Source of the DNA: Aurantimicrobium photophilum
Lineage (GTDB): Bacteria; Actinomycetota; Actinomycetes; Actinomycetales; Microbacteriaceae
NCBI RefSeq assembly: GCF_003194085.1
Contig: NZ_CP023994.1
Location: forward strand, 1,116,001 to 1,180,000
Direction of reading: 5' to 3'
Length of the DNA: 64,000 bases
Shown here: positions 10,455 to 26,601 of the stretch, in pieces
Layout: each line of letters opens with the position of its first letter
How positions within the stretch are numbered: position 1 is the first letter of the stretch
Made by a program: the position numbers and the translations under genes
The notes under the pieces: generated by a model
What the model saw: only the letters and a program-made list of their open reading frames with translations
The model's database searches: none
Told to the model about the DNA's origin: nothing

Positions 10455-12980
10455 TCACAGAATGACCCTTGTGGTCGAGCCATCAGGTTCGACCACAAGG
10501 GTTTTTCCATACCCCGTGTGAGGAAACAGACCCGACCGCAGACGCAAACCTCGAAGTTCTGAACTGGTGCAGCCATCCAGCACCACAACAGAGGAGTGCT
10601 TGAGTGCCCCAAGGAGTGCAGGTTGAGACATCCACTCATCCGGTGTTCCCACCACGATGGATGGTGAATTCTGAACCTGAACAGAAATCCCTTCGCCCAA
10701 ATCTGAGAGTCTTGATTCTTCTTCCTGCCAAGCAAGGAGGAGCTCGCGCTTCCGGTGGGTCACAACCAAATAAGAGGTGTTCTCGTCAAAATCGAGCTTC
10801 TCGACCTGAGCAACAGGGTGCTCTAGAAACTCCGTCAAGAAAAGTTGAACCTCATGTCCATTCCACACAGCCCTGCCAGGTTGTGCATGCGACTGAAGCT
10901 TGAGAGTTGCAGGGAAAAGAGACAACAACCCCGTCACGCCGCGGATGTGTTCACTGCACCCCAACACCACAGCTTTGCCTTGCTTAGGGGCGTTCCTCAC
11001 CACGCGCGTGAGGCACTGAAGGAACTCCTCACGATGCTCCAGATCGAAGTCATCCAGGATGGCATCAAGGTCGTCGACGATGAAGCCTTCCTCTGGTGCT
11101 GCTCCCCCAACGACAACATCCCAAGCCTGTTCAGCCTCAACAATCAGACCAAAGCCCAACTGCTGAGCAATGAGTTGGGAGGCATTGCTGTTGCCTGAAC
11201 GTGCAGGACCTGTGATGAGTAGGTTCCCCTCGGAACGTGGTGAGTACTGTGCCCATGTTTGCACCTGGTGTTCTGGGATATCTGCCAGCCCCAACCAAGC
11301 AGCTTCATCGAGAGGCTCTGGTAAGTCGACTGAACGAATCACTGACGGCAGAGGCGGTAACCATGGCAATCGAGGTGACCATCCGAGATGTTCCTGCCGC
11401 CATTGATCGGTCTTTGCTTCGACCACCTCTATGTCTTGCTCGGTCAGACATGCTGCTTGGAACTCTTTCTGATCAAGACCAGTTCCTACAATCACAGCTC
11501 TGCCTGGGATGTGGGGAAGAACAAAAGCAGCGTCATCTCCCAACAGCGCCTGGGAATCTTGTTTCTGTGAAACACGGAATCCCACCTTCAGAGCACAGTT
11601 CGCCAGTAACGCATCACCGAGAGCTCCACCCACACGCTGGCTGGAGAGAATCAGATGAATTCCGAGAGATCTTCCCCTTGCAGCGAGGTCCACAAAGACG
11701 CTCTGGAGTTCCGGGAACGCTTCGAGAACGGCACGAAATTCATCAACAACGACAATGAGACGCCCGAGCTGAATGCCTTCACCGAGAGCTGCAATATCCC
11801 CTGCTCCACACTGCGCCAGGACCCGTTCGCGATAGCGAATCTCTGCATGCAGTGACGTCAAGGCACGATGAGCTTCTGCGTTATCAAGGTCTGTCACCAT
11901 TCCCACAACATGTGCCAAGCCCGTGAGCTGGCTAAAGCCGGCACCACCTTTGAAATCAATAATCAGGAAGGAGAGTTCATCGGGCGAATAACTGGCAGCT
12001 AGTGCAACAAGCCAAGTTTTCAGGAACTCTGTCTTGCCTGAACCTGTCATTCCTGTGATGACGGCATGTGGTCCGGCGGTGACGAGGTCAAGCAGGAGTG
12101 GATATGACTGTTGCCTCCCCACATTGACAACCAAACTTTCTCTAGTGGACTGCCACATTCCTGTGGTGTTGAGGACGGTCTCAACACGTTGGGGAATGAC
12201 TTCTCGTTCTTTCGTTTCGGGAGTAGTTTCTGCCACTAATTTGGGCAGGATGAGGTTCGCTTCAGCTCGGGTGAGCAGATCCACCGACAGCTCGATGGGA
12301 GCGGCCATGGCATCGACTGTGTCGAGCAAGGTGGCTCGTCCATGCTCCACTTTGAGCAGATAACGCAATCCCACCGGGATGGTGTCCATATCGGAAATAT
12401 GGCTCACTACGACGTTGATACTCTTCGTTGGAGAGAGCAAGGCAACCAGTTCTGGTTCTGCAGAAAGTTCGATCCCCACACGCGTGATCTCATGGCTTCC
12501 CCAATTCCACGCCAACTGGAATGCCATCGCACGTATAACCGATTTCGCCTCGATATCAGTCCCTCTCACAGCGATACCTGAGGTGATATCCAACAGAACC
12601 GGCAAACCGTCTGTGCGATCAACTCCTAGTCGCACCACACGCTCGTCGCCTACTGACTGGGCTCCTGCAGCCCACAGCGGCCTCATCATGTTTCCGGGTT
12701 GTGCATTGGCGCTGCTGGGAGGATTGCGCCGGAGCATCTCTTCTCGATGAGCGAGTGTTTCGAGCTGTTTTTGCTGAGACAGGGCTATCTCTTCCTCGTC
12801 TTCACGCTCTGCCTGCTTGAGCGCTTCTCGTTTGGTATGAAACTTGCCATCGAAGTACTGGGCAACCGCCATAACTGGCCCCAGAAGGGCAAAGAGGAGT
12901 GTGTAAGCAGAGCCTGTAATCAGGAACAACACAACACTGGTGACAAGTGGGGCAATAAGGGCAAAGACAGGGAAGCGCAT
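10455..12980 (-). CDS. FtsK/SpoIIIE (EccC-like) membrane ATPase
   Basis: The 841-residue protein has two N-terminal membrane helices (about residues 5-45), a charged coiled segment to about residue 90, and a first FtsK-type ATPase domain. That domain has Walker A GMTGSGKTE (Lys316), Walker B LIVVVDEF and the GRSLGIHLILSSQR motif typical of EccC/EssC type VII secretion ATPases. A second ATPase-like domain has a broken Walker A, GPARSGNSNA, with Asn597 where the lysine should be. EccC proteins usually have three ATPase domains, so this one is short. It is the last gene of the kinase/Fn3 locus. No EccB, EccD or WXG100 gene is present in the window, so secretion is an inference. Confidence 0.85.
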   Translation of the reverse strand: MRFPVFALIAPLVTSVVLFLITGSAYTLLFALLGPVMAVAQYFDGKFHTKREALKQAEREDEEEIALSQQKQLETLAHREEMLRRNPPSSANAQPGNMMRPLWAAGAQSVGDERVVRLGVDRTDGLPVLLDITSGIAVRGTDIEAKSVIRAMAFQLAWNWGSHEITRVGIELSAEPELVALLSPTKSINVVVSHISDMDTIPVGLRYLLKVEHGRATLLDTVDAMAAPIELSVDLLTRAEANLILPKLVAETTPETKEREVIPQRVETVLNTTGMWQSTRESLVVNVGRQQSYPLLLDLVTAGPHAVITGMTGSGKTEFLKTWLVALAASYSPDELSFLIIDFKGGAGFSQLTGLAHVVGMVTDLDNAEAHRALTSLHAEIRYRERVLAQCGAGDIAALGEGIQLGRLIVVVDEFRAVLEAFPELQSVFVDLAARGRSLGIHLILSSQRVGGALGDALLANCALKVGFRVSQKQDSQALLGDDAAFVLPHIPGRAVIVGTGLDQKEFQAACLTEQDIEVVEAKTDQWRQEHLGWSPRLPWLPPLPSVIRSVDLPEPLDEAAWLGLADIPEHQVQTWAQYSPRSEGNLLITGPARSGNSNASQLIAQQLGFGLIVEAEQAWDVVVGGAAPEEGFIVDDLDAILDDFDLEHREEFLQCLTRVVRNAPKQGKAVVLGCSEHIRGVTGLLSLFPATLKLQSHAQPGRAVWNGHEVQLFLTEFLEHPVAQVEKLDFDENTSYLVVTHRKRELLLAWQEEESRLSDLGEGISVQVQNSPSIVVGTPDEWMSQPALLGALKHSSVVVLDGCTSSELRGLRLRSGLFPHTGYGKTLVVEPDGSTTRVIL
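10465..10506 (+). terminator. Rho-independent terminator of ald, inside the 3' end of the FtsK-like gene
   Basis: A perfect 14-bp stem (ACCCTTGTGGTCGA with TCGACCACAAGGGT) with a ten-base loop is followed by TTTTT on the plus strand. It begins 17 bases after the ald stop. The whole hairpin lies within the last codons of the oppositely oriented FtsK-like gene, whose TGA is at 10455-10457. Confidence 0.88.
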
Positions 12981-13047
12981 GGGGGCACTTCACCACGAAG
13001 TCGAGTATCGAATCACTCACATCTGAGTGTTCGTGGATAACTCCGCG

Positions 13048-13695
13048 TTAGCTAATGGTGAGGTGGAGATCTCCGAAATCCACCCGAGTTCCGCGCACCA
13101 CGGTGTAGTGAGTTCCTGGTTGTGCACGACGGGGCACAACACCGGGTTCACGAATAATGGTTCCGTTGCCACTCTTGCGGTCAGAAATCCACAACTCATT
13201 ACCCTCAACACCGAACTCAAGGTGGGTCTTGGAGACGGATCGACCCGGGTCTGAGACCACGATGAGGTGTTCGAACTCTTCATCCTCAGCAGGCGTGGGC
13301 ATGCGGCCTAGGAGTCCACTGCGGGTGATCTCAACGCTTTCACCGGTTCCCAGCGTGATGGTGAACGAGACCATGGAGGTGAGTTCGTTCTCGGTAGCAA
13401 AACGGGGTGCTTCAACAACACGGGCAGGCGGGGTTTCGAAAAGCTCGGAGAGATCAACGCCCTCGATCTGCTCAATGATGTTGGTCGATGTAGTTTCTGG
13501 TTCCTGCGCAGGAACCGTAGTGAAACTCTCTGCGGGGGGAAGATCAGCAGGTGCAGAAGTTACTTCAACCGCAGGCTCAGCAACAGGCTCTGGCTTCACC
13601 ACAGGAATTGCTTGGGTGCGGGAGACAGAACTGCCGCATTCGCCACAGAACAGCGCTCCGTCCGGGAGCGCGCTCTGACATACCTCACACACCAT
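13048..13695 (-). CDS. Zinc-ribbon plus FHA domain protein
   Basis: The start is placed at the ATG at 13695, giving 215 residues, because the conserved zinc ribbon MVCEVCQSALPDGALFCGEC begins there. A longer frame would run into the upstream gene. The four cysteines (3, 6, 17, 20) form two CxxC pairs. A proline/valine/glutamate-rich linker follows. A C-terminal FHA domain occupies about residues 118-215, with GLLGRMP, SVSKTHLEF and SGNGTII motifs, and should bind phosphothreonine. It begins 11 bases after the transglutaminase-fold gene and is followed by the FtsK-like gene. It may link kinase signalling to that ATPase, by inference from context. Confidence 0.85.
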   Translation of the reverse strand: MVCEVCQSALPDGALFCGECGSSVSRTQAIPVVKPEPVAEPAVEVTSAPADLPPAESFTTVPAQEPETTSTNIIEQIEGVDLSELFETPPARVVEAPRFATENELTSMVSFTITLGTGESVEITRSGLLGRMPTPAEDEEFEHLIVVSDPGRSVSKTHLEFGVEGNELWISDRKSGNGTIIREPGVVPRRAQPGTHYTVVRGTRVDFGDLHLTIS

Positions 13696-13705
13696 GACTG
13701 TGATG

Positions 13706-15904
13706 CTACCGGCGCTTGGGCAACCAAGCGGTGAAGCGAGCCCATGACAGACCAAATGATTTCACTGAAATCTTTGCTCTGAATTTCTGCCAACGTGTCA
13801 GGTTTGCATCTAATTCCTTGACCACACCATCTGCTTCGGACCAGGCACGAATCACGTCAGATTCGGTGACGGAATCAACCGAATACTGGGCTGTATCTGC
13901 CAGCACGGCAACCGTGGTTGCTGCTGGCAGAGCAGTGATCTCTGCTAATTCTTGACGCGTCATCGAGGCAGATGCAGCAGTGCCATGATCAAGCAGGGCA
14001 TCTCGAACCTCACTCCATGCGCCTTCCACACGATCACGGGGATCTGCGGCGCTGTGACGCGCTGCGCGTCGGCGCCGCTTCGCAATGACTATTGCGAGGA
14101 ACGGAGACGCAAGAACACCTAGCCAGAGCAGTGACCACCCAACCACGTTCAGCACCGCAAGAATGGCCTGCAACACAGGATCCACTGCCGTGGGCTGTTC
14201 TTCATCGGCAGCTTCAGGGGCTGAGTTGTCGTTGAGTTGTGGTTCATCCTGCGCAGGGGGTTCCACTGCGGTTTGTGGGAAGGCCACTTCTGTGGGGTCT
14301 TGAGGCTGCTCTTCCGGGATAGGTCGTTCCGCAGGGTTGGGGTTCACAGCCACCCAGCCGTTGGTGGTGTTGATCTCGATCCACGCCGTCATCTCAGCGC
14401 CGGTAAAGGTCACATCAGTACCCGCATCGGAGCCTTCAGGGGCGATAAAGCCCATCACCACGCGAGAGGGGAAGCCAATCTGTGTTGCCATCAGCGAAGC
14501 GGCAGCCGCATACTGCTCTGCGTCTCCGACCATGGGGCTTGCCGCAAAGAGAGCAGCGAGACGATTAGCACCATGGCCAGAGGCACTAGAAACCTCCTCG
14601 GGACCACCATGGCTGATGTAACCCTGGGAAGTGAGCGCGGTAAGTGCTGCTTGCACGCGTTCCCCTGCAGACGTTTTTCCCTTGGAAGACAAAGACACAA
14701 AAGCATCCAGCCCATCTGGCATCACCTGAGGGGCAGGAACGATGGCATCGCCAGGTTCGAGCGAACCAACAGAGGAGATTGACACCTCAGGTGCAGCAAG
14801 ACCGGTGGTGCGATAGCTATCACCCTCTATCAAACCTGTGGTGACAGCTCCTGTTCCCGCAGGACGGCTGTAGTAGAAGGCATCAGTGAGTGCTCGTGAA
14901 CCTGCTCCAGTGAAGTTCAACGAGCCGAGCTCTCCTGTAAGGGGAACCCATGCACCTGTAAGGCCAGAGATCGTGACCTGCGCTGTGACTTCATCACCTG
15001 TCTTGGACGTTGTGGGGATAGAGCCGGGAAGTTTGGTGAAGTCGGCGGCAACACCACCGACGGAGAACAACACCCCGGTGTAGTTATCGAGGGCGGCAAT
15101 ACTGAGTCTTTGGCCCGCGCTCAGCCCAGTAACCGAGAGAAGATCCTTGTTCTTGTCATCGCCGGTGACAAAAGAACGGTATTCAGAGAGTGGGCTGGTG
15201 TCGTCTTGCAATACGAAGGGCTGGTCAATCTCGGTGCGCCAGACTGTGCGGTCCGTGATGGGAGTGACCAAGACAACCGCAGAGGCCACTACTGCAGAAA
15301 GAACGAGAATACCGATTGCCCTGAATCCAGCTCGGGCAACACCGACGCGGCTGAGCGCAAACCACATCGCTATAAGAACAAACACACCCACGGTGACGAC
15401 AACACTGGCGAAACTTCTACTGGGGCCAAGCCAGATGGCGACACCCAGCGTGATTACGGGAACCAGTGCAGCCACGGAGGCAATTCCTCGCGTGCGAATG
15501 ATCCGCAGGCTCAGCACAACCGCAAGCAATACTCCCAGCAACGACAGCAAGAGCACAGGCACCAAGAGAGCTTCATATGTGCCCACTGGCGGCATGACCG
15601 TCACCAGTTGTTTCCATGACAGCACGACACCAGTGAGCAGATTGAGTTCACCTTGCAGGCTGGGAAGGAAGCCGAAGAATGCTTCGCTGGGCACAGCCAG
15701 TGGAACACCGAAGATCAGATAGGCAGTAACTGCCGTGAGCGCGGTGCGGAGCACGGACCACTTACCGCGGGCAGAGAGCAGTGCAATGAGGGCACCGAGA
15801 AGGGCACCACCAGCTACAGCAACAAAGAATGCAGGGTTTTGATACACCGGCCACAACGGCACGAGAGATACCACTACCGCTAAGGCAAGTATGAGAGCCC
15901 TCAT
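13706..15904 (-). CDS. Transglutaminase-fold membrane protein lacking the catalytic triad
   Basis: The 732-residue protein has a block of about six membrane helices at the N-terminus (residues 1-215), a long extracytoplasmic region with a transglutaminase-core fold near residues 430-525, a Pro/Glu-rich stretch, one more helix near residues 590-615 and a cytoplasmic tail. This is the usual TgpA/YebA-like layout. The catalytic positions are changed: Cys is Ala462 in GDAEQYA, His is Thr506 in EMTAWIEI, and Asp is Asn521 in VAVNPNP. It is therefore probably a structural or peptide-binding protein and not an enzyme. Its ATG overlaps the DUF58 stop (TAATG), so the two are translationally coupled. 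Confidence 0.88.
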   Translation of the reverse strand: MRALILALAVVVSLVPLWPVYQNPAFFVAVAGGALLGALIALLSARGKWSVLRTALTAVTAYLIFGVPLAVPSEAFFGFLPSLQGELNLLTGVVLSWKQLVTVMPPVGTYEALLVPVLLLSLLGVLLAVVLSLRIIRTRGIASVAALVPVITLGVAIWLGPSRSFASVVVTVGVFVLIAMWFALSRVGVARAGFRAIGILVLSAVVASAVVLVTPITDRTVWRTEIDQPFVLQDDTSPLSEYRSFVTGDDKNKDLLSVTGLSAGQRLSIAALDNYTGVLFSVGGVAADFTKLPGSIPTTSKTGDEVTAQVTISGLTGAWVPLTGELGSLNFTGAGSRALTDAFYYSRPAGTGAVTTGLIEGDSYRTTGLAAPEVSISSVGSLEPGDAIVPAPQVMPDGLDAFVSLSSKGKTSAGERVQAALTALTSQGYISHGGPEEVSSASGHGANRLAALFAASPMVGDAEQYAAAASLMATQIGFPSRVVMGFIAPEGSDAGTDVTFTGAEMTAWIEINTTNGWVAVNPNPAERPIPEEQPQDPTEVAFPQTAVEPPAQDEPQLNDNSAPEAADEEQPTAVDPVLQAILAVLNVVGWSLLWLGVLASPFLAIVIAKRRRRAARHSAADPRDRVEGAWSEVRDALLDHGTAASASMTRQELAEITALPAATTVAVLADTAQYSVDSVTESDVIRAWSEADGVVKELDANLTRWQKFRAKISVKSFGLSWARFTAWLPKRR

Positions 15905-17166
15905 TACGACACCGCCATGCGTTTGCCGAGGAGTTGCTGGAGATCGTCGAGGCGACCAATGGTTGCCACAGTTAGTCTGCCCATTCGGCGTGTAACTGGA
16001 GAAGCTTCAGGAGCACAACTCACCACAACCACTTCAACCCCGGCAGGGAATGCCACAGAGGCAGAGTGCAGGGTCTTCGAGTCCACGGCAGCACCGGTGA
16101 CCAGGAACGCAATGGACACATCTGCTGCCTGCGCTGAGGCCAAGCGTGAGAGCTCCACAATGCTGGGGCTTCCCTCTTGCAGGTGAACTCCAGAGAGTTC
16201 GTCGAGTAGTCGGTCGCGGGAAACAGTAGACATCGCTCGAATTCGGGCAGGTGCAGAACCACGTTCAGCACGGCGACGTGAAGCCAGCTCTCGTGCAGCT
16301 TCACGCAAAGCACTGAGGCGGCCGGTTGAAGCGGGCCTAGCATCGGCGCTCACCAAAACAGAGAGATCACGGGTGTCGCGAATAGCACGAACACCCAGTG
16401 ATGCCGCGGCACTGACGGCTAATTCGAACTCATCATCGGTGGCAAATACTTCTGGTTCGGTGTCCAGCACAATCATGAGGTGACTGCGACGAGTCTGCTC
16501 AAACTGTCGGACCATAAACTGGCCCGTCTTCGCCGTGGACTTCCAGTGAATGTTGCGGCGATCATCACCGGGAACATATTCACGTAGCGCATGGAAAGAC
16601 AGGTCACTGTCGGTGAGGTCCCTGGTGGGATTACCTTCCAGATCTCGCACAAAGCCCGTGCTCATGCTGAGCAAGCCAATAGTTCTGGGGTGAATGAACA
16701 GCGTGCGCACATCCCCGTGAACAACTTCACGCGAGATAAGGCCCAGCGGGTCTTGACGAATGACACGGGCAGGCCCCACCTGAACCATGCCACGGTGATC
16801 GGTGGGAACAGGCAAGGTGATGTCGTCCTGCGCAGCTTTACGCAGTCGACCCACCTGAGTCTCCACCTGCTGCTCCCCCACGGGAACAACCACATCAAGC
16901 GACGCCAGTGAGTGACCAGTGGGATTAGACACCGTCACGACGAGCTGTGCTTCATCTCCAACGACCACACGCTCGTGAGCGAGGTGGAAGGACACTTCAT
17001 GAGAGTGGCGAAAGAGTGCGTAGAGCGTGGCCAGACCAAAGGTGAGCAGTCCAGCAACACCCAAACCTATGAGTTCAATCCATCCCTGTGCTGCACCCAC
17101 GACAAGGCAGAGCAGGGCTACAACAGCCCAGCCCCAGCCTCGCGAGGTGACAACACGGAAGTTCAT
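15904..17166 (-). CDS. DUF58 domain protein
   Basis: The 420-residue protein has two N-terminal membrane helices (about residues 12-52), a beta-rich segment, and the DUF58 signature YVPGDDRRNIHWKSTAKTGQ near residues 195-214, followed by a VWA-like region (HLMIVLDTEPE). DUF58 proteins nearly always accompany MoxR ATPases and transglutaminase-fold proteins, as here. They are thought to act together in assembling or folding envelope proteins. Both ends show TAATG overlaps, with MoxR upstream and the transglutaminase-fold gene downstream, which is strong evidence for one operon. Confidence 0.92.
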   Translation of the reverse strand: MNFRVVTSRGWGWAVVALLCLVVGAAQGWIELIGLGVAGLLTFGLATLYALFRHSHEVSFHLAHERVVVGDEAQLVVTVSNPTGHSLASLDVVVPVGEQQVETQVGRLRKAAQDDITLPVPTDHRGMVQVGPARVIRQDPLGLISREVVHGDVRTLFIHPRTIGLLSMSTGFVRDLEGNPTRDLTDSDLSFHALREYVPGDDRRNIHWKSTAKTGQFMVRQFEQTRRSHLMIVLDTEPEVFATDDEFELAVSAAASLGVRAIRDTRDLSVLVSADARPASTGRLSALREAARELASRRRAERGSAPARIRAMSTVSRDRLLDELSGVHLQEGSPSIVELSRLASAQAADVSIAFLVTGAAVDSKTLHSASVAFPAGVEVVVVSCAPEASPVTRRMGRLTVATIGRLDDLQQLLGKRMAVS

Positions 17167-18128
17167 TATGCGGCAGGTGCTCCCACGGGAAGATCAATCA
17201 AGATCTTGCCCACAACGTTGTTTGCTGTCACGCCATCGAACTCAGCCTCGGGGTCCAGCACGAGACGGTGAGAAAGAACGGAGTCAGCAAGTGCCTTCAC
17301 GTCATCAGGGATGACGAAGTGGCGGCCTTGCGATGCTGCGTGAACTCGTGACGCACGAATGAGTGCCAAAGCACCACGGACCGAGGCACCCAGGCGAACT
17401 TCTGGCGCAAAGCGAGTGGCTTCGACAATGCGGGAGACATAGTCATTGATCTCGGGGTCAACGTGGACGCTCTTGGCCAGTTCAATCAGCTTGACCACCA
17501 TCTCGGCGGGCACAACACCGTCGAGTTCAGCAGCCTGCTTCTTGGCAGAGCCTTCCAGGATGAGCATGGTTGAGGCATGGTCGGGGTAGCCCAAGGATGC
17601 CTTCATGAGGAAGCGGTCCAACTGGGCCTCGGGGAGGCGGTAGGTACCGGCTTGCTCAATGGGGTTTTGGGTCGCAATGACCATGAAAGGCTCACCGGTG
17701 GGGTGGGTCACACCGTCCACGGTCACGTGGTGCTCTTCCATCACCTCGAGCAGAGCCGACTGCGTCTTGGGGCTTGCGCGGTTGATCTCATCCGCGAGAA
17801 CGATGTTGGAGAAGATGGGGCCCTTGTGGAATTCGAAGGCACCCTTCTTCTGGTCAAAGATGCTCACACCGGTGATGTCACCGGGCAGAAGATCAGGGGT
17901 GAACTGGATACGTGAGTGGCTTCCCTGCACACTCTGCGCCATTGCACGAGCCAGCGAGGTCTTACCCGTTCCGGGGTAGTCCTCGAGGAGGAGGTGACCA
18001 CCACTGAGCATGGCAGTGAATGCCAGGCGAACGGTTCGATTCTTGCCCAGAAGAACCTGTTCCACGTTTCCGACGAGCTTGTCGAAAACTTTCTGGAACC
18101 CGGCTGCTTGTTCGGGTTTCATACTCAT
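17166..18128 (-). CDS. MoxR-family AAA+ ATPase
   Basis: The start at 18128 gives 320 residues, beginning MSMKPEQAAGFQKV. It is preferred because an AAAGG lies seven bases upstream and a longer reading would overlap the upstream gene. The AAA core shows Walker A EDYPGTGKTSLARA near residues 50-62, Walker B NIVLADEINRASPKTQ, and a MoxR-type C-terminal lid. MoxR ATPases act as chaperones with VWA or DUF58 partners, and the DUF58 gene follows with a one-base overlap. It is cytosolic. Confidence 0.93.
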   Translation of the reverse strand: MSMKPEQAAGFQKVFDKLVGNVEQVLLGKNRTVRLAFTAMLSGGHLLLEDYPGTGKTSLARAMAQSVQGSHSRIQFTPDLLPGDITGVSIFDQKKGAFEFHKGPIFSNIVLADEINRASPKTQSALLEVMEEHHVTVDGVTHPTGEPFMVIATQNPIEQAGTYRLPEAQLDRFLMKASLGYPDHASTMLILEGSAKKQAAELDGVVPAEMVVKLIELAKSVHVDPEINDYVSRIVEATRFAPEVRLGASVRGALALIRASRVHAASQGRHFVIPDDVKALADSVLSHRLVLDPEAEFDGVTANNVVGKILIDLPVGAPAA

Positions 18129-18150
18129 GTTGTGCCTTTCGATGGAGCGG

Positions 18151-21100
18151 TTAGTTCTGGGTTGGAATGTAGAAGGGAGCGGGTGTTCCACTGGAGGTGG
18201 AACCGCCAGCACCGCAGTCACCTGCAGCTGTGCAGCCACGAATAACAACAGTCTGGCCTGTGCCGGAGGTTCCTCCGGCTTGGAAGTAGGCGGTTTTGTC
18301 GATTTGGTAGGTCGGAGTGGATGCCCCGGCTACCTCGGTCAGATCAACCCAGGTGCTGCCAATCTGGATCTGCCAGGTTCGAATGGAGGACTGCAGTGAG
18401 GCAACTGTGGGGTTTTCCACGCGAATGACAAATTCTTGGCCGTTTGTCGCTGTGGAACATGTCACTGCTGGTGTTGCCAGAGGGAATTCAAGACAGCTGG
18501 CTGCGTCATAGGACGCAGCTCCTGGAATGCGCTGTGCAATGGTGAGACTAGTTGTCTGGGCAACGCAACTAAATCCGTTGTCGGCATAGACAACGTAGTT
18601 GTAAGTGCCCACACTCTTGGAAGAGTTGTCATTCCAGGACGTTGCCGAGCCCACATTGGTCGCCCCTGATTGGTAACCAGCGAGGCAGCTTCCGTCAGAG
18701 AAGGAAGACGTTCCACCCTTGACGTAGTAGGTCACTGATCCAGCACCGTTGGCACCCACGGGGTTCCAACTCAGCGTGGTTTCACCGTTGGCGCCAGTCT
18801 GGGTGGCCACCAGGCCACCTGCTGGCTGCGGTGCGCCGATAGCAACGATAGATCCAGAGCTGGTGGTGTTCCAGTTTTCGGTGTCTGCGTTGTTCTGCGG
18901 AGTGACGCGAGCAACATAGGAGTGCCCGGGGGTTAGCCATAGCGTGGGGAGGCTTGTCACATTGGCAGGTTGGTCGTAACTTGCCCGCACGGTGGTGCCA
19001 TCTTCGATGATGGTGACCACGTACTTGCTGACAGGGCTACCACCAGAGGGCGTTCCCACAGCACTCCAGGAGACATTAATTCCGCCACCCTCGGGGTGAG
19101 AAGAATCAAATGCCGCGGTGGAAATATTGACCTGGGCAGGCCCTGCTGGAATGACGTCTGCGCTCAGTGGCTCACTCCAGTTACTCAGCTGAGATGTACC
19201 AATGGCGTTGGTGGCACTCACGGTGAAGCGGAAACGCTGACCGGTTGGCAATCCATCCAGCGAACAGATGGTGGAGGTGCATTCCTTGCGGTAGCCGCCG
19301 TCACTTTCGACGGTGTACTTGGTAATCGCCGAGTTGTTGGCAGCTGGCGCTGGCCACGACAGGGTCAGAGTTCCAGAAACAAACCCAGCAGCACGCGTGG
19401 GGGCTTGTGGCGCGTTAGGAACATCCTGAACAGAGATGTTGATGACGCCCCAGACATAACGATCGGGGTCGTTGGTGGCGTCTGCCACCTCATATTCAAG
19501 CGTGGTGTCACTGGGGTCAGCGTTGCCAGAGACCGTCACCGTCAAAGTGGACTTATCTGCAGATGGAGTCACGGTGACCCCCGCAGGAATGTTTCCACCA
19601 TCGAGACCGCGGACCGAAAGAACCTTCAAAGGCTGTCCTGGGAAGGGGTTGGTGGCTTGGTCATTGGCCAGCACGTCCACGGTCTGGGTTTCACCACGCT
19701 TGGCCACAATGCTGTCCGTTGCCGGGATAGCCAAAGGCCTGGTCGAGGGCACGATACGAATAATGATCTGACCTGGAGAACCGTCCGCAACCTTGTCTTT
19801 GACTGTGACGGTCAACGGAACGGTGCGTCCCTTGGCAGCGTCGTCGCTGGCCTTGAGCGTCAGCGTCTGACCGTCCAATGTCGCGCTGACACCTTGACCG
19901 GCACCTGAGACGGTGTATTCGAGCTCATCTTGGTCATCGACGTAGGGATAGCGCGTGACGCGGACGAGGTCGAGGGTCTTCTCTTGACCGGGTTCGAGGT
20001 CAATGTTGGCGCCCATCATGACCGGAGGCATGTTTTCGCGAGGAGTCACGGTTATCGGCAACACAATCGTGGCGGTGTGAGCACCGGGAGAGGTGGCGGA
20101 ATCACCATCGGTGACTTCGAAGGAAATGGAGGCCGGGCCGAAGTAGCGATCCTCACTGGTGTAGCTCAGCGTGGTGTCGTTGACGACAAGCCTGGAGCCA
20201 TCTGCATGGGTCGCACGAACCGTTGCGGAATCCGTCAGCTTCACGTTCTTACCCAATGCGGCAATGACGTAGTCGTTGATATTGATACGCAGGGTTTGCT
20301 CACTCACTACGGTCAGCGGAGCAACACCACGCTTGCGCTGAGGCAGGGCATCATCGGTGCCGGGGACCCAAATAAACGCCGTCGACGTGACACTGGGGTC
20401 ATCGGGGTGAGCGACAGAGAACGGGATGATCTGGCTTTGTGCCAGCACCTGCACGCGAACCGTATTGCTCGAGATCACACGGGCAGTCTGGCCGTAGCCG
20501 TTCACAATGGTGGGGCGCAGGCTCGATACCGGCCCATCAGCGAAGAAGGCATTCGCCATCACGTTTACATCGACACTGTTGTGGCCAAGGATGTCTGTCA
20601 GGCTCACCACCGCATCAGAGATGACGGGCTTAGCCAGTGGTGCCTGTGTTTGAACATCGAGAGTGATGAAGTTGGAGGCGGAACCTGCCAGGTCATTCTC
20701 TATTTCATAGATCAGGCCATAGCGTCCAGGGGTCAGTGGTGCGGTGATCTTGACCAGATCGCCCACGATTTCTGCCGTGACGGAATCATCCTGAGGGGTC
20801 ACCGTCACAATGGAGAGCGGACGTCCATCAGGGTCACTGTCGTTTTGTAAGGCACGGACATAGACGGTGTATCCGGGGCGTGCGATCACGTTATCGGCTA
20901 CCGCAATGGGATTGCGGCCACCGGCAAGTGGCTCTGCAATTCCGACGCGAATGGTGGCACTCGCCTGAGCTCCAAGAGCATCTACGACCGAGTAGCTGAA
21001 GGAATCAGTGCCGGTTGCATAGGCAGAAGCTTCGTATTCAATCCAGTCACCACCAACTGACGTGATGGAGCCCTTCTCAGGGTTGGTGTCGAGACCCACA

Positions 21101-23883
21101 AACTGCACTGAGTCACCGTCAGGATCGATACCGACCAACGGGATCGGAATACGCACAGTCTGACCAGACATAGCTCGTGCGGTCACGGTGCGCGGATTAG
21201 GTGCTTGGTTGGTGTCTTCGTCAATGGCACGAACCGAGATAGTGACCGTGCCACTGGCCCACTGGCCGTTATCTGCGTTGACGCGGTACACGGCCGAGTA
21301 GGTTCCCGGGTTGTTGCCAGCAAGGAAACGCAGCTGGTTCCCCGAGACGAAGAGCAGTCCTGCACCGGAGGGAACATCTTGATCGAGGGTGGGTGCCAAG
21401 GTGAGCTGGCCACCGTCAGGGTGAATGTCGTTGGCAAGGACAGGAATGCTGATGACATCTCCCACGCGCACCGCCACCACATCGGGAACAGCAACAGGTG
21501 CCTGGGCAACCACTGGTGCTGGTGTTTGCACAACCGTGATGGTGCCTTCGCTCTGAGAAATACCGTTACTGATGCGATATCCGAAGGACACGGCTGCATC
21601 TAGTGGCTTAGTGAGCGTCACCCGCACAAGTCTGTGGTCGACTACCTCTACTTGAATACCTGATTCAAGAGGAACATTCATGGTTCCCGTGACCACGAGC
21701 ACACCGCCGGCAGGATCGCGGTCGGTGGCGGTCACATCAACAGTTCGAGACTGCTGCAGCGGAACATAGACCGCGTGAGCAGAGGTAATCGGTTGCGCGG
21801 AAACTTCAGGCGGATCAATCACATCTATGCGCACCAGACCCGAGCCGGTGGCATCACCATCTGTCACCGCATAGGTGACATAGGTGGATCCTGTGCGGGA
21901 CGCGGTTACAGAGAAGGAGAAGTTGGCGAAGTCGGTAACAATATCCAAACCAGGAACAGCTGGAACACCAGTCAGGCTGAGCACACCAGTTCCCCCGCGA
22001 ATGTGCGGAGAAGGATTAATGGTGACCGGCTGGCCCTGAACCGCAATCACGGCAAATGCTTCAGCAACAATCGGCACCTGACCAGCTGCCTTCACACTGA
22101 CCTGGACGGAACCAAAACCTGATGCACGGCCATCAGAGACTTCAAGCGCAATTTGCTTGTTTCCGCCACCCCCGCGACCAGAGTCGGTGAATGCCACACG
22201 ACCTGCGGGTGAATAGGACAGTGAGTCTGGTTCCTCGGTTGTTGCCGCAGCAACGAAGATGGCATCGCCATCAGGGTCGACCCAGTCACCCAACACATTC
22301 ACAATGACCTGCCCGCCCATGGCCACAGAAGTGCGTGTGGGGCGAGCCTGAACAGGTGGAGAGTTTTCTGAATCAGGACGAATGTTGAGCGTGACGGTGG
22401 CGGAGGCTTCGCCGCCGCGGCCGTCAGAAATCGTGTAGTCGAACTGGGTAGCACCGGCAGCATCAGGGGCAAGACGAACCATGACCTGATTACGGTCAGC
22501 GTTGATGTAAATCTCACCGAGCCCGGCAGGAATACCTGTCACCGAGTCAATGACGAGCGCATCACCATTGGGGTCGTAGTCGTTGAGAAGAACAGGGAGA
22601 GCAGTCACACGACCTGGACGGGCACCCAGATCGTCATCGACCGCAACCGGGGGTGCTGGGTTTTTGTCATACTCAGGGGCATCAGCGTTATTGGTTTGGA
22701 CTACCTGCTGTTCTTGAGCTTGCTGAGCCAGGAGTGAATCCCAGTTGTCGATGAGGCGAACTCCACCCTGCACCGCCCAGACCAAACCAGTGGCAGCATC
22801 ATTAAGCGCAATAACACCATCAGACACGCGGAACGTCAGCTGGGCAGATCCAGACATGGATTCTGCATTGTCCGTGCTGTCCCCAGCTGAACCGCACTTC
22901 GACCACACGGTGCCACCAGACCACGCTGCATAACCGCAGTCCCCGTCAATCAGAGGAGCAGCGGGTCGACCGTTTGCTGCAGTAATGAGAGAAGTCTCAC
23001 CACTGTCGAGGTTGATGGCAGAAAGCCCTGAACTGGTTGCTAACAGCACAGATAAGGTGCCCGAGACATTCGTAGACGCGTTATTGCTCGCGTTCACGCC
23101 CACGGCGCTGGGAAGCTGCAGCTTCGCCTGAGCCAGTTCAGTGGCGGTTGCGCTCACAGAGATGACACGGCCAGCGGTGATGAGCATTGCTGATTCACGG
23201 TCCAGCACAGCCCACCGGTCCCCCACCAGCGTGATCTCCAGCTTGCCCGTGTTGAGCTTCGCATCCAGAGTCTTCGACTCGGGTGTGACGGAAGTCAATG
23301 TGTTGATGCTGGAGAGAGTGCCAAGCTTGGCGCTGACCCCCACGAGGAAGCCTTGAGCATTAACCGCCACAACAGAGTCCGCACCAACCGTAAAGTTGGC
23401 GGGCTGGGTTTGCGCATCAAAGGTGGAGATGGTTGCGGCAGGAATAACCCACACATCACCAGAGCTGGGGGCGTGCAAGATGACGTTGTCACCAGAGAGC
23501 GCCGCATAGGTCACATCCTGTGGAAGTGGGATGCTCTCCGAGACCTCTCCGGTTGCCTGATCAACCACATCCAATGAACGCGTGGCGTCATTAATGAGGA
23601 ACACGTGTTGAGCGTTTTGCACCAGATCCATCTGACTGGAATCTGTGGTGAGCACGGTGTTGAGTTCAAAGACCTTGGTGTTGGCACGACCGATAGCTTG
23701 CTTGTCACCGTTAGTCACCCACACAGCACCATCATCGAGGTTCACGCGCTGCGCTTGATACCCGGTGGCCACGAGTGCGCCAATGACCAGAAGTGAAAGC
23801 ACACTGGTTGCCGCCGTCCACTTGATAATGGTGCGACGGCGTGGGGTTGCCCCGAGGAGGCGGCGTAACCACGAACGGATCAT
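18151..23883 (-). CDS. Giant membrane-anchored surface protein with Ig-like and fibronectin type III repeats
   Basis: The 1910-residue protein has an Arg-rich N-terminus, one membrane helix at about residues 20-42 and no signal-peptidase site, so it is probably anchored with the rest outside. Residues 45-385 look like a beta-propeller-type region. A Gln-rich linker follows. From about residue 410 to 1480 runs a series of cadherin/Ig-like modules with recurring PVAVDD, NDYDPNGD, VNADRDPAGG-like motifs. Three fibronectin III domains follow (about 1488-1575, 1580-1678, 1682-1780), then a cysteine-containing C-terminal domain. The start lies two bases after the kinase stop. It is the likely ectodomain partner of the adjacent kinase, by inference. 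Confidence 0.9.
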   Translation of the reverse strand: MIRSWLRRLLGATPRRRTIIKWTAATSVLSLLVIGALVATGYQAQRVNLDDGAVWVTNGDKQAIGRANTKVFELNTVLTTDSSQMDLVQNAQHVFLINDATRSLDVVDQATGEVSESIPLPQDVTYAALSGDNVILHAPSSGDVWVIPAATISTFDAQTQPANFTVGADSVVAVNAQGFLVGVSAKLGTLSSINTLTSVTPESKTLDAKLNTGKLEITLVGDRWAVLDRESAMLITAGRVISVSATATELAQAKLQLPSAVGVNASNNASTNVSGTLSVLLATSSGLSAINLDSGETSLITAANGRPAAPLIDGDCGYAAWSGGTVWSKCGSAGDSTDNAESMSGSAQLTFRVSDGVIALNDAATGLVWAVQGGVRLIDNWDSLLAQQAQEQQVVQTNNADAPEYDKNPAPPVAVDDDLGARPGRVTALPVLLNDYDPNGDALVIDSVTGIPAGLGEIYINADRNQVMVRLAPDAAGATQFDYTISDGRGGEASATVTLNIRPDSENSPPVQARPTRTSVAMGGQVIVNVLGDWVDPDGDAIFVAAATTEEPDSLSYSPAGRVAFTDSGRGGGGNKQIALEVSDGRASGFGSVQVSVKAAGQVPIVAEAFAVIAVQGQPVTINPSPHIRGGTGVLSLTGVPAVPGLDIVTDFANFSFSVTASRTGSTYVTYAVTDGDATGSGLVRIDVIDPPEVSAQPITSAHAVYVPLQQSRTVDVTATDRDPAGGVLVVTGTMNVPLESGIQVEVVDHRLVRVTLTKPLDAAVSFGYRISNGISQSEGTITVVQTPAPVVAQAPVAVPDVVAVRVGDVISIPVLANDIHPDGGQLTLAPTLDQDVPSGAGLLFVSGNQLRFLAGNNPGTYSAVYRVNADNGQWASGTVTISVRAIDEDTNQAPNPRTVTARAMSGQTVRIPIPLVGIDPDGDSVQFVGLDTNPEKGSITSVGGDWIEYEASAYATGTDSFSYSVVDALGAQASATIRVGIAEPLAGGRNPIAVADNVIARPGYTVYVRALQNDSDPDGRPLSIVTVTPQDDSVTAEIVGDLVKITAPLTPGRYGLIYEIENDLAGSASNFITLDVQTQAPLAKPVISDAVVSLTDILGHNSVDVNVMANAFFADGPVSSLRPTIVNGYGQTARVISSNTVRVQVLAQSQIIPFSVAHPDDPSVTSTAFIWVPGTDDALPQRKRGVAPLTVVSEQTLRININDYVIAALGKNVKLTDSATVRATHADGSRLVVNDTTLSYTSEDRYFGPASISFEVTDGDSATSPGAHTATIVLPITVTPRENMPPVMMGANIDLEPGQEKTLDLVRVTRYPYVDDQDELEYTVSGAGQGVSATLDGQTLTLKASDDAAKGRTVPLTVTVKDKVADGSPGQIIIRIVPSTRPLAIPATDSIVAKRGETQTVDVLANDQATNPFPGQPLKVLSVRGLDGGNIPAGVTVTPSADKSTLTVTVSGNADPSDTTLEYEVADATNDPDRYVWGVINISVQDVPNAPQAPTRAAGFVSGTLTLSWPAPAANNSAITKYTVESDGGYRKECTSTICSLDGLPTGQRFRFTVSATNAIGTSQLSNWSEPLSADVIPAGPAQVNISTAAFDSSHPEGGGINVSWSAVGTPSGGSPVSKYVVTIIEDGTTVRASYDQPANVTSLPTLWLTPGHSYVARVTPQNNADTENWNTTSSGSIVAIGAPQPAGGLVATQTGANGETTLSWNPVGANGAGSVTYYVKGGTSSFSDGSCLAGYQSGATNVGSATSWNDNSSKSVGTYNYVVYADNGFSCVAQTTSLTIAQRIPGAASYDAASCLEFPLATPAVTCSTATNGQEFVIRVENPTVASLQSSIRTWQIQIGSTWVDLTEVAGASTPTYQIDKTAYFQAGGTSGTGQTVVIRGCTAAGDCGAGGSTSSGTPAPFYIPTQN

Positions 23884-23885
23884 GA

Positions 23886-24992
23886 TTATCCGGCCACCAC
23901 TGCCAAGACGAGAGTGACGATAGCCACCACTGCCACCACACCCGTGACGACAGAAATCAGGAGCTTGCGCCGGCGGCGCGCAGCGACGAGCGCAAGCTCA
24001 TCACGTTCTGCCGGAGTGGAGTTATAACCCTGGCGTCGCCAACTTGGCGTGGAGTGGGCATCGAGCGGGGACAGTGCGGTGCGATCGTTCTCATTGATCA
24101 CAATCGCGGTGGAACCCCACTCATCACCGACAACATCCAGAGGAGTCTGAGCTAAGCCCATTGACGTCTCAACCTGCTGCAGCTGCCGAGCAAACTCGAG
24201 TGCCGAGTGTGGACGGTCGATGGGGTTCTTACTCATCGCCTGGTTAAGAACTTCTTCCAGACGAGCAGGAACGTCACTACGGCCAATGGGCTGCGGCTTA
24301 GATTTCAAGATGCGGCCAGCGAGGTGACCGGGAGAGTTGTCCTTGCCTGGGATCTCAAAGGGGCTGCGCCCTGCCAGCAACGAATACACCGTGGCGCCCA
24401 GCGACCAGATCTCTGAAGCTGTTGAACCTGTGGTGCTCTCACGAATGACTTCAGGAGCAGACCATGGCACCGAGAGTCCCACTGCGGTGGAGTTATCACC
24501 CAAATAGACCGAGGAGGCAATTCCGAAGTCACTCAAGACCGGGTGGCCATAGGCGGTAACCAAGATGTTGCCAGGCTTGATGTCGCGGTGAAGCACATTG
24601 GCGCGGTGAGCAGTTTCCAGTGCAGCAGCAATGCGTATACCGGTGCGCAAGGCTTCTGCCACAGGAATCGTCTCTGCACGAAAGCGTTCGCCGTAACCAC
24701 TGACACACACCTCTGTCACGAGATAGGGGCGACCATCGGCGCTCACGCCAGCTTCGAAGACACTCAAAATCGAGGGGTGTGTGCTCAGCTGAGACATCAA
24801 CTGAGCTTCAGATTGGAACATGTCCCGCACGCGAGGGTTCACAACCTCAGGCAGCAGAACCTTCACAGCAACATTGCGCCTGGGAAGCTGCTGTTCATAG
24901 AGAAACACGTCGCCAAAACCACCAGAGCCCAACACACGGACGAATGTGAATCCAGGCAGCACAGGCGGAGTTGAGGGAAGTCGTCTCGACAT
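23886..24992 (-). CDS. Ser/Thr protein kinase with a C-terminal membrane helix
   Basis: The 368-residue protein is a complete Hanks-type kinase: glycine loop GSGGFGDV, Lys44 (VAVKVLL), Glu62, catalytic HRDIKPGN with Asp137, SDFG with Asp155, and APE at 179-181. After about residue 275 comes a linker rich in Ser/Thr and then a single helix near residues 342-366, with only three residues beyond it. It therefore has no extracellular sensor domain such as PASTA repeats. The giant Fn3 protein encoded two bases downstream may supply the sensing part, by inference. The PP2C phosphatase gene is upstream, 80 bases away. Confidence 0.94.
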   Translation of the reverse strand: MSRRLPSTPPVLPGFTFVRVLGSGGFGDVFLYEQQLPRRNVAVKVLLPEVVNPRVRDMFQSEAQLMSQLSTHPSILSVFEAGVSADGRPYLVTEVCVSGYGERFRAETIPVAEALRTGIRIAAALETAHRANVLHRDIKPGNILVTAYGHPVLSDFGIASSVYLGDNSTAVGLSVPWSAPEVIRESTTGSTASEIWSLGATVYSLLAGRSPFEIPGKDNSPGHLAGRILKSKPQPIGRSDVPARLEEVLNQAMSKNPIDRPHSALEFARQLQQVETSMGLAQTPLDVVGDEWGSTAIVINENDRTALSPLDAHSTPSWRRQGYNSTPAERDELALVAARRRRKLLISVVTGVVAVVAIVTLVLAVVAG

Positions 24993-25072: not shown

Positions 25073-25888
25073 TTAGGCAGGTGAAACTGAGGATTCGGTG
25101 TGCCCCACCGTGACCGCAATAACGTCAATGACGATCAATGTGACGTTGTCACGACCGCTATTGGTCAGCGCGGCGTTCATGAGCTCGCTCACGGCATCCT
25201 CCACCGTGGGAGCGTTGGTCAAAAAGTGCTCAATTCCGACATCGGTGAGCTCTTTGGTCAAGCCATCAGAACACAGCAACAAACGCATGCCGGGAACGAC
25301 AGGAAGTGCCACATAGTCAGGGATGGGCTCATCGATGATGCCCACAGCACGGGTAATCACGTTGGCGTGAGGGTGGTAGTCCGCCTCTTCCTTGGTGATG
25401 GTTCCTGCATCCACCAGTTGCTGCACAACCGAGTGATCCACGGTGACCTGTTCAAAGGTTTCATCGAGCTTCACATAGACGCGCGAGTCACCAATGTTGA
25501 AAACAGCCCACTGCAGCTGGTCACCTTCTTGGACCAAAGCAGCACCCGTGACTGTTGTCCCCGCACCCTGCTGATCTTCGGTGAGCTTGTTACGCAGGTC
25601 CACTACCGACATAGCCAGTGCCATCTCGAGGGCGTCTAAGTCAGCGAATCCTGGCTTCTCCAAGCCGGCAATGCGCTGCACGACACAATCGCTGGCAATG
25701 TCGCCGGCACTGTGGCCACCCATGCCATCCGCCACAGCAAAGACGGGGCAGGCAATGGCATAGGAGTCTTCGTTGTTAGCGCGGTGGTTTCCCACATCCG
25801 TTCCGGCAGCCCAGGAGAGGGTTACGCTCGCACCAGTGCTCGTGTCGACAACAGTCGTGCCGGTCGAGTTCTGGCCTAGGGCAGTCAC
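25073..25888 (-). CDS. PP2C-family Ser/Thr protein phosphatase
   Basis: The 271-residue protein has the PP2C metal-binding motifs: NNEDSY, VADGMGGHSAGD, NIGDSRVY, LCSDGLTKEL and SGRDNVTLIVI near the C-terminus. It should remove phosphate from Ser/Thr residues with Mn/Mg and oppose the adjacent kinase. It has no membrane helix, so it is cytosolic. The start is GTG at 25888 with a GGAG eight bases upstream. It lies between the FHA gene and the kinase gene on the same strand, a typical kinase-phosphatase-FHA signalling trio. Confidence 0.95.
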   Translation of the reverse strand: MTALGQNSTGTTVVDTSTGASVTLSWAAGTDVGNHRANNEDSYAIACPVFAVADGMGGHSAGDIASDCVVQRIAGLEKPGFADLDALEMALAMSVVDLRNKLTEDQQGAGTTVTGAALVQEGDQLQWAVFNIGDSRVYVKLDETFEQVTVDHSVVQQLVDAGTITKEEADYHPHANVITRAVGIIDEPIPDYVALPVVPGMRLLLCSDGLTKELTDVGIEHFLTNAPTVEDAVSELMNAALTNSGRDNVTLIVIDVIAVTVGHTESSVSPA

Positions 25889-25932: not shown

Positions 25933-26601
25933 CTAACCAAGAACTTCAAGTCTATTACCGTCACCGAGGTCGATAATCGCGCCAACCCCGAGCGCCATCG
26001 AGTCCCCGGGGGCAAGCAGAACGGTGGGCTGCCCAGGATTGATCACACGGGTGCCATTGGTTGAGCGCAGGTCGGTCACCACCACCACATCACCGAGCAC
26101 CTCAACACGGGCATGAGTGGACGACACAACACCATCAGGTGAGGCAAGAACAACGAGAGTCACTCCGCGATCACCACGCAGGGGCGCTGCAGGCAGACGC
26201 CCCATGATCAACGGCTTGGTCAGTTCGTACTTGGTGCCATTGATGTGACGCAAACGAAAACGGGAGATGAGTTCCTGCTGCGGAGCTGTATCCCCGACGT
26301 CACCAGAGCTCTCCTCAACTTCTTCAATCAGTCCACTCAGGCCCAGAGAGGTGTCCATGAGAGAGCCGATGAGGGTGTTGTATTCGTCTGTCGTTTCGGG
26401 GATGACCGTGTCATCACTAGTGATGACAGTTTCCTCAGACGGGACAACATCTCCGATGACCGTGCTGTCATCGATGATCTCAACTGATCCCACAACTGTT
26501 TCATCAATTGGAACTGTGATGATGGTGTCATCGCTGGCATCAGCGCCGATGACGGTGTCATCGTTCACGTTGATGCGAGTGTTGTCGTCAGGAGTGCTCA
26601 T
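25933..26601 (-). CDS. FHA protein with a Thr-rich acidic N-terminus
   Basis: The ATG at 26601 gives 222 residues; a TTG seven codons upstream is less likely. The first 80 residues are acidic and contain seven acidic/Asn-Thr-hydrophobic-hydrophobic motifs (DDTVIG, DDTIIT, DETVVG, DSTVIG, EETVIT, DDTVIP, NTLIG) with Thr16, 26, 35, 47, 58, 65 and 76. A C-terminal FHA domain (about 120-222) has MGRLP, VSSTHARVEV and LRSTNGTRV. The arrangement resembles GarA-like substrates, in which N-terminal threonines are phosphorylated and then bound by the FHA domain. Its partner kinase is probably the one encoded two genes downstream. smc lies 33 bases upstream. Confidence 0.88.
   Translation of the reverse strand: MSTPDDNTRINVNDDTVIGADASDDTIITVPIDETVVGSVEIIDDSTVIGDVVPSEETVITSDDTVIPETTDEYNTLIGSLMDTSLGLSGLIEEVEESSGDVGDTAPQQELISRFRLRHINGTKYELTKPLIMGRLPAAPLRGDRGVTLVVLASPDGVVSSTHARVEVLGDVVVVTDLRSTNGTRVINPGQPTVLLAPGDSMALGVGAIIDLGDGNRLEVLG

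Follow-up and report, generated by a model that had tools for sequence, protein, structure and literature searches.

The window analysed here, a 64,000-nucleotide stretch of the Aurantimicrobium photophilum genome (NZ_CP023994.1, positions 1,116,001 to 1,180,000), contains a gene for an FHA protein that is followed on the same strand by genes for a PP2C-type phosphatase, a Hanks-type kinase, a 1910-residue Big_9/cadherin/fn3 protein and a MoxR-type ATPase, and then by DUF58, transglutaminase-like, zinc-ribbon FHA and FtsK/SpoIIIE ATPase genes (Table 1). The components that mark a PFNA-type cluster, namely an adjacent kinase, an fn3 protein, a MoxR AAA protein, DUF58 and a transglutaminase, were all found, with PP2C and fha present as accessory genes. 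Neither enzyme nor reader is unique in this genome, since it encodes five FHA domains and five kinase domains. A scan for sigma-70 promoters and terminators around the FHA gene found nothing.

Table 1. Features of the FHA-PP2C-kinase locus, in window coordinates.
Feature	Position	Strand	Basis
FHA protein, 222 aa, ATG start	25933..26601	-	Pfam FHA, E 1.1e-06
N-terminal array, residues 14-78	26368..26562	-	sequence; codon places by hand from start codon
Thr codon T16	26554-26556	-	
Thr codon T26	26524-26526	-	
Thr codon T35	26497-26499	-	
Thr codon T47	26461-26463	-	
Thr codon T58	26428-26430	-	
Thr codon T65	26407-26409	-	
Thr codon T76	26374-26376	-	
FHA domain, residues 113-222, confident model	25936..26265	-	AlphaFold, conserved residues, Foldseek
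PP2C-type phosphatase, next gene downstream of the FHA gene	25073..25888	-	profile match
Hanks-type Ser/Thr kinase, 368 aa	23886..24992	-	profile match; C-terminal transmembrane helix by eye
Conserved D-R-T-A-L (Thr305) in the juxtamembrane interval of the kinase; candidate FHA docking site	24072..24086	-	alignment
Zinc-ribbon FHA protein, without array	13048..13755	-	profile match; motif count
Rest of PFNA-like cluster (zinc-ribbon FHA gene inside the span)	10455..23883	-	profile matches

The FHA protein matched the Pfam FHA profile with a score of 29.4 bits (cut-off 20.7). In an alignment of 48 rows, the canonical residues G134 and S160 were invariant and R135, H163, N182 and G183 were conserved in at least 90%. 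In FHA domains the Arg/Ser pair and the Asn-Gly loop serve in phosphate binding, and the window protein possesses both (R135 and S160; N182 and G183). Using 48 rows, AlphaFold placed 11 strands within residues 116-221 (mean pLDDT 85-98 by block) and left residues 1-110 without secondary structure (pLDDT 48-60); with 8 rows only, the model was poor (mean pLDDT 38.9). The predictions describe a confident FHA fold that follows an unstructured N-terminal tail. Foldseek matched the model to FHA chains at E 3e-06, with ArnA ranked first and FhaA second, all of the best matches being FHA domains; GarA, OdhI and the FHA domains of MDC1 and DgcB were among the next, and the structures of the last two contain their own N-terminal phosphopeptides. 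In a sequence-profile comparison, the top relatives with a solved structure were three sequences named TB39.8, which appears in other entry titles as FhaA or Rv0020c. The protein is probably a reader of phosphorylated threonines.

The initial annotation had placed seven threonines in acidic-Thr-hydrophobic motifs at the N-terminus of this protein, between 26340 and 26600, and the array was indeed present and covered by that range. The motifs read DDTVI (Thr16), DDTII (Thr26), DETVV (Thr35), DSTVI (Thr47), EETVI (Thr58), DDTVI (Thr65) and YNTLI (Thr76). All seven threonines precede two aliphatic residues and are spaced 7-12 residues apart; five follow a pair of acids (-2 and -1), Thr47 follows Asp-Ser, and Thr76, which fits the motif least, follows Tyr-Asn. 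Of residues 1-90, 21 are acidic, one is Arg and none is Lys. The idea that such sites would arise in any acidic tail rich in Thr was rejected by shuffling residues 1-110, which yielded a mean of 0.46 sites and reached seven in none of 200,000 shuffles. In a mechanical selection of 54 window ORFs (20,699 aa, FHA gene included), the strict motif occurred elsewhere as two singletons, while a looser form (T with an acid at -1 or -2, followed by two aliphatics) gave 11 matches spread over 10 other ORFs, two at most in any one, as against six in the FHA protein. Genome-wide, a search at the DNA level for D-[DE]-T-[VIM]-[VIM] gave 15 matches, four of them clustered in the FHA gene, which formed the sole cluster in the whole genome; the other 11 were scattered, a number close to the 9 matches of the reversed-pattern control.

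The array was well conserved within the genus, contrary to the lack of conservation that the annotation had named as grounds for refuting its proposal. Thr16, 26, 35, 47, 65 and 76 were invariant in 8/8 congeners (the window and seven others), and Thr58 was kept in seven, with a deletion in the eighth. Invariance of six of the seven motif threonines, against 18 of the 82 other residues of 2-90, gave a Fisher p of 0.0013, a value that ignores kinship among the congeners. Other Ser and Thr residues were freer, with 5/16 invariant, three of these within residues 74-85, and three congeners carried an additional inserted motif, ESTVID. Residues 74-85 (26347-26382), YNTLIGSLMDTS, form a separate conserved segment containing Thr76, a residue that may be something other than an array member. 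Conserved in 8/8 congeners, elsewhere in the cluster, were an NSTGT-x-V stretch near the N-terminus of the PP2C and a TTST-x-I-[IV] motif in the zinc-ribbon FHA protein (13474-13494), the latter reminiscent of the ETTS acceptor of GarA.

For the family as a whole, 120 genomes were searched, 100 of which matched, and DNA around the best match was taken for 69 of these 100, the better-scoring ones. Among all the loci assembled, 103 had an FHA match, 83 of them distinct, and a PP2C gene was flagged, by mechanical means, directly downstream in 52. Three loci whose frame runs off the contig (L022, L029 and L091) were dropped, leaving 49, made up of the eight congeners and 41 others from 34 genera, seven of which contributed two. 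N-terminal regions were read from stop to stop, up to 300 residues for per-protein counts and 350 for counts in the 41 relatives and by residue class, so that some rows may include untranslated letters; first-Met trimming in the per-protein counts lost the DESTVIGG site of L013. At least one site was found in 39/49 of these PP2C-adjacent FHA proteins and at least two in 31/49, and the largest numbers were those of L073 (10 within the 300 residues counted) and L027 (nine); five of the eight single-site proteins were not significant alone (shuffle p >0.05). The full motif, acid(-1/-2)-T-aliphatic-aliphatic, was found at 82 sites against 4.6 expected, in 32 of the 41 non-congeners; looser motif classes in this count were chosen after the sequences had been viewed. 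The Ser version gave 11 sites in the same 41, though Ser is more abundant there than Thr (540 vs 464). Nine of the 41 were without the full motif, and three of the 41 (L009, L069 and L102) without even acid-T-[VIL], L009 and L069, which belong to one genus, being almost tailless. The commonest residues across the relatives' sites were D-D-T-V-L-R-P. The array is a feature of the family. The number seven, named in the annotation, is not special, as counts among the relatives range from 0 to 10 over the stretch considered. The array of L073 (from genome G026) contains tandem identical copies of EEDTVLGRRELD, which suggests that it grew by duplication.

Outside this set the motif was weaker. The PP2C-unflagged set comprised 31 proteins, 30 of which were counted (the zinc-ribbon protein was left out, and L015 and L075 are one gene entered twice), and gave 29 sites against 3.6 expected, in 17/30. 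An order-level test covered the best 30 loci of 82 matching genomes, with or without an adjacent PP2C and with several frames running off the locus; one of the 30 was the window and eight of the other 29 belonged to the same family. Overall there were 13 sites against 3.6 expected, with seven against about 1.5 in the eight further same-family loci and six against about 2.1 in the 21 loci from three other families, a weak signal beyond the family. A related motif, H-D-G-[EQL]-T-[IV], occurs once each in L017 (the same place as L124), L021, L025, L028, L030 and L137, FHA proteins outside the PP2C-flagged set.

The selectivity for Thr was assessed by tallying, for the 41 non-congeners, which residues stand at X in [DE][DE]X[VIL]. 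While Thr occurred 58 times against 1.77 expected (33-fold), Ser occurred four times against 1.94 (2.1-fold), Ala six against 3.77 (1.6-fold), Leu four against 1.97, Ile once against 0.81 (1.2-fold) and Val three times against 3.01 (1.0-fold). Among the congeners, which are mutually non-independent, Thr was found 35 times against 1.50, and both Val and Ile were absent (1.42 and 1.32 expected). An acidic low-complexity linker in which unphosphorylated T-V-I triplets act as beta-prone stickers, of an aggregating or amyloid-like kind, might be expected to show fairly regular spacing, as seen here, and T, V and I are all beta-branched. However, beta-propensity was rejected as the cause of the pattern, since neither Val nor Ile is overrepresented in place of Thr, and the tail in the AlphaFold model is without strands; we regard such stickers as very improbable. 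These counts argue strongly against acidity or beta-propensity alone and point to phosphothreonine. FHA domains strictly require phosphothreonine (PMC8786283), and a site that demands Thr is therefore the mark expected of a kinase-FHA system.

The residue at +3 is less easily accommodated. It is G, T or P in the window array and most often R in the relatives, a mismatch to the catalogued FHA preferences, pTxx[ILV] or pTxx[ED] (PMC8786283), that speaks against an FHA-bound tail. The mycobacterial kinase PknA prefers an acid at -1 and further upstream together with a hydrophobic residue at +3 (PMC7164672); the acid positions of the array fit this preference and the +3 position does not, which also counts against the mechanism proposed below. 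The same holds for the nine relatives without the full motif, for the weak signal outside the family and for the five FHA and five kinase domains of the genome. The tail could instead serve the kinase or the phosphatase as substrate trap or docking strip, in the role of a kinase sink or dose meter and not of an FHA ligand. Besides the unusual +3 residues, this would agree with the selectivity for Thr, as a Thr-preferring kinase alone would be expected to leave the same mark as a kinase-FHA system, and with the seven phosphothreonines of the StkP juxtamembrane region (PMC12077195), by which Thr arrays are known in kinases themselves, with no FHA domain in the same protein. Yet in the family examined the tail belongs to a protein whose FHA domain retains the canonical residues, and the kinase itself bears a similar Thr motif, so that a pure trap appears quite improbable.

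That kinase motif lies in the juxtamembrane interval. Across 23 kinases (the window, seven congener loci and 15 selected loci), D-R-T was present in 18 and E-R-T in one more, giving [DE]RT in 19/23; three lacked it, and the contig ends within the remaining one (L163). The wider pattern T-x-[VILM]-[RKS], chosen after viewing the sequences, had 20 occurrences (5.5 expected) among the 20 anchored kinases and its Ser version three, the three anchorless kinases lying outside this count. FhaA, an FHA protein, is recruited to PknB through the juxtamembrane region of that kinase in its phosphorylated state (PMC12077195; PMC6180346), and the FHA protein of the window may dock likewise on the kinase of its operon; by this analogy, the [DE]-R-T motif is a plausible candidate FHA dock. 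The kinases of the eight Aurantimicrobium congeners stop directly after the hydrophobic helix, and the other 14 complete family kinases (L151, L152, L154-L162 and L164-L166) continue, as judged by eye, for ~80 more residues past it. The outside part of the Aurantimicrobium kinases seems to have been lost.

The FHA protein invites comparison with GarA and OdhI, which have one or two acceptor threonines and whose orthologues carry an ETTS acceptor motif near the N-terminus and have MerR-type regulators as gene neighbours. It is alike in placing N-terminal Thr acceptors before one FHA domain and in its fold, as matched by Foldseek, and differs in having about seven candidate acceptors. The ETTS motif was absent from the window protein, which has E-T-T-D at residues 69-72 (26386-26397); Thr71 of this stretch was invariant in 8/8 congeners and is, from its resemblance to the GarA motif, a possible further candidate acceptor. 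Nor was the gene neighbourhood of GarA found, the FHA gene lying between the PP2C gene and a 1183-aa ORF that we take to be SMC. Another FHA gene elsewhere in the genome (L031, 1441-1962) adjoins presumed MerR-type ORFs, the gene context of GarA, and we take it for the GarA orthologue.

A GarA-like switch in cis has nevertheless to be weighed, in which one motif at a time would fold back and block its own FHA domain and the surplus motifs would be redundant copies that raise the local acceptor concentration. Self-binding of the N-terminal Thr region is described for GarA, OdhI and DgcB (PMC6733907), the acceptor of OdhI being Thr14 (PMC2784874), and the range of site numbers among the relatives is what redundant copies would show. 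However, conservation of six separate sites in 8/8 congeners is more than redundancy requires, and the presence of a separate FHA protein taken, from its gene context, as the GarA orthologue also tells against it. On balance we consider a simple cis switch unlikely.

The notion of a multi-site acceptor, as first proposed for this tail, is indirectly supported by the conservation of the motifs, their Thr selectivity, the PP2C and kinase neighbours and the canonical FHA residues. The suggested partner, the zinc-ribbon FHA protein, was not singled out by the analysis; an interaction with the FHA domain of the protein itself, or with the kinase tail, is no less likely. A motif count over the window ORFs found no array in the zinc-ribbon protein.

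We therefore favour, with a probability of roughly 0.6, a multivalent phosphothreonine tail that is written by the kinase, erased by the PP2C and bound by FHA domains in cis or in trans. The N-terminal ~80 residues would form a disordered, strongly acidic tail displaying about six or seven Thr motifs of the consensus acid-acid-Thr-Val/Ile-aliphatic. Several of these threonines would be phosphorylated by a Hanks-type kinase, most likely that of the same operon, and the phosphates stripped by the adjacent PP2C. The resulting phosphothreonines would be bound by the protein's own FHA domain, either in cis or in trans, the latter leading to chains or clusters, with the FHA domain of the zinc-ribbon protein as an alternative or additional reader. 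A further possibility is that the FHA domain docks on the juxtamembrane D-R-T of the kinase once this is phosphorylated, which would hold the tail at the membrane, near the enzyme. The number of phosphates would then set the valency of a membrane-proximal complex, and the complex would control the MoxR/DUF58/transglutaminase/surface-protein machinery of the cluster. What was observed here are the motifs themselves, their conservation and preference for Thr, the surrounding genes and the conserved motif of the kinase; from these we infer the phosphorylation of the tail, its binding, its partners and its output.

More tentatively, and with the odds against it, this could be extended to the whole of the Microbacteriaceae, where the PFNA-type FHA protein would be a tunable multivalent phosphothreonine scaffold that gates a surface system. 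Arrays of between one and ten or more Thr motifs would carry a number of phosphates set by kinase and PP2C, FHA domains would crosslink the tails to one another and to the juxtamembrane D-R-T of the kinase, and a membrane-bound polymer or condensate would thereby gate the MoxR/DUF58/transglutaminase surface system.

The inner workings of PFNA-type clusters are, in the accounts available, little understood, and few cases of multi-site phosphorylation in bacterial FHA proteins are known to us. With a compact, conserved array and its likely kinase and phosphatase in a single cluster of a small genome (1.75 Mb), multivalent pThr-FHA signalling can be tested directly, and the differing copy numbers of the relatives offer a natural experiment on valency. 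None of the literature matches listed, which consisted of titles and the starts of abstracts and lay mostly outside subscription journals, described such an array in a bacterial FHA protein; it may already be in print elsewhere.

Among known systems, Rv1747 of Mycobacterium tuberculosis differs from the window protein in having two FHA domains and an ABC transporter, with few acceptor threonines, located in its linker. It is alike in combining FHA with a disordered region, and its condensation is promoted by PknF and reversed by PstP (PMC9312465). The PFNA operon of Bifidobacterium likewise unites a kinase, fn3, AAA-ATPase (MoxR), DUF58, transglutaminase, prpC and fha, with prpC and fha in certain species only (PMC8430577). 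Unlike that operon, the window cluster has extra zinc-ribbon FHA and FtsK-like genes, and the part of the Bifidobacterium account available, compared by description alone, describes no Thr array in the fha product (PMC8430577). In DgcB of Bdellovibrio the FHA domain binds phosphorylated T14 of its own N-terminal tail, with the difference that the output domain is GGDEF and that one acceptor is described (PMC6733907). In the Fha-PpkA pair of T6SS, a membrane Thr kinase phosphorylates an Fha scaffold and both form condensates, although the secretion context is unrelated and the reported requirement is for a single Thr, T640 (PMC12607579). By analogy, the closest mode of action to that proposed for the tail is that of CHK2, where an acceptor cluster N-terminal to the FHA domain is bound by the FHA domain of another molecule (PMC4296918). 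The CHK2 motif is S/T-Q, in contrast to acid-T-V-I here, and the kinase of the window is a separate gene; homology between the two is claimed for the FHA fold alone. If the scaffold reading were true, the PFNA-type FHA protein would be a bacterial counterpart, by mode of action, of the SQ/TQ cluster and FHA domain of CHK2.
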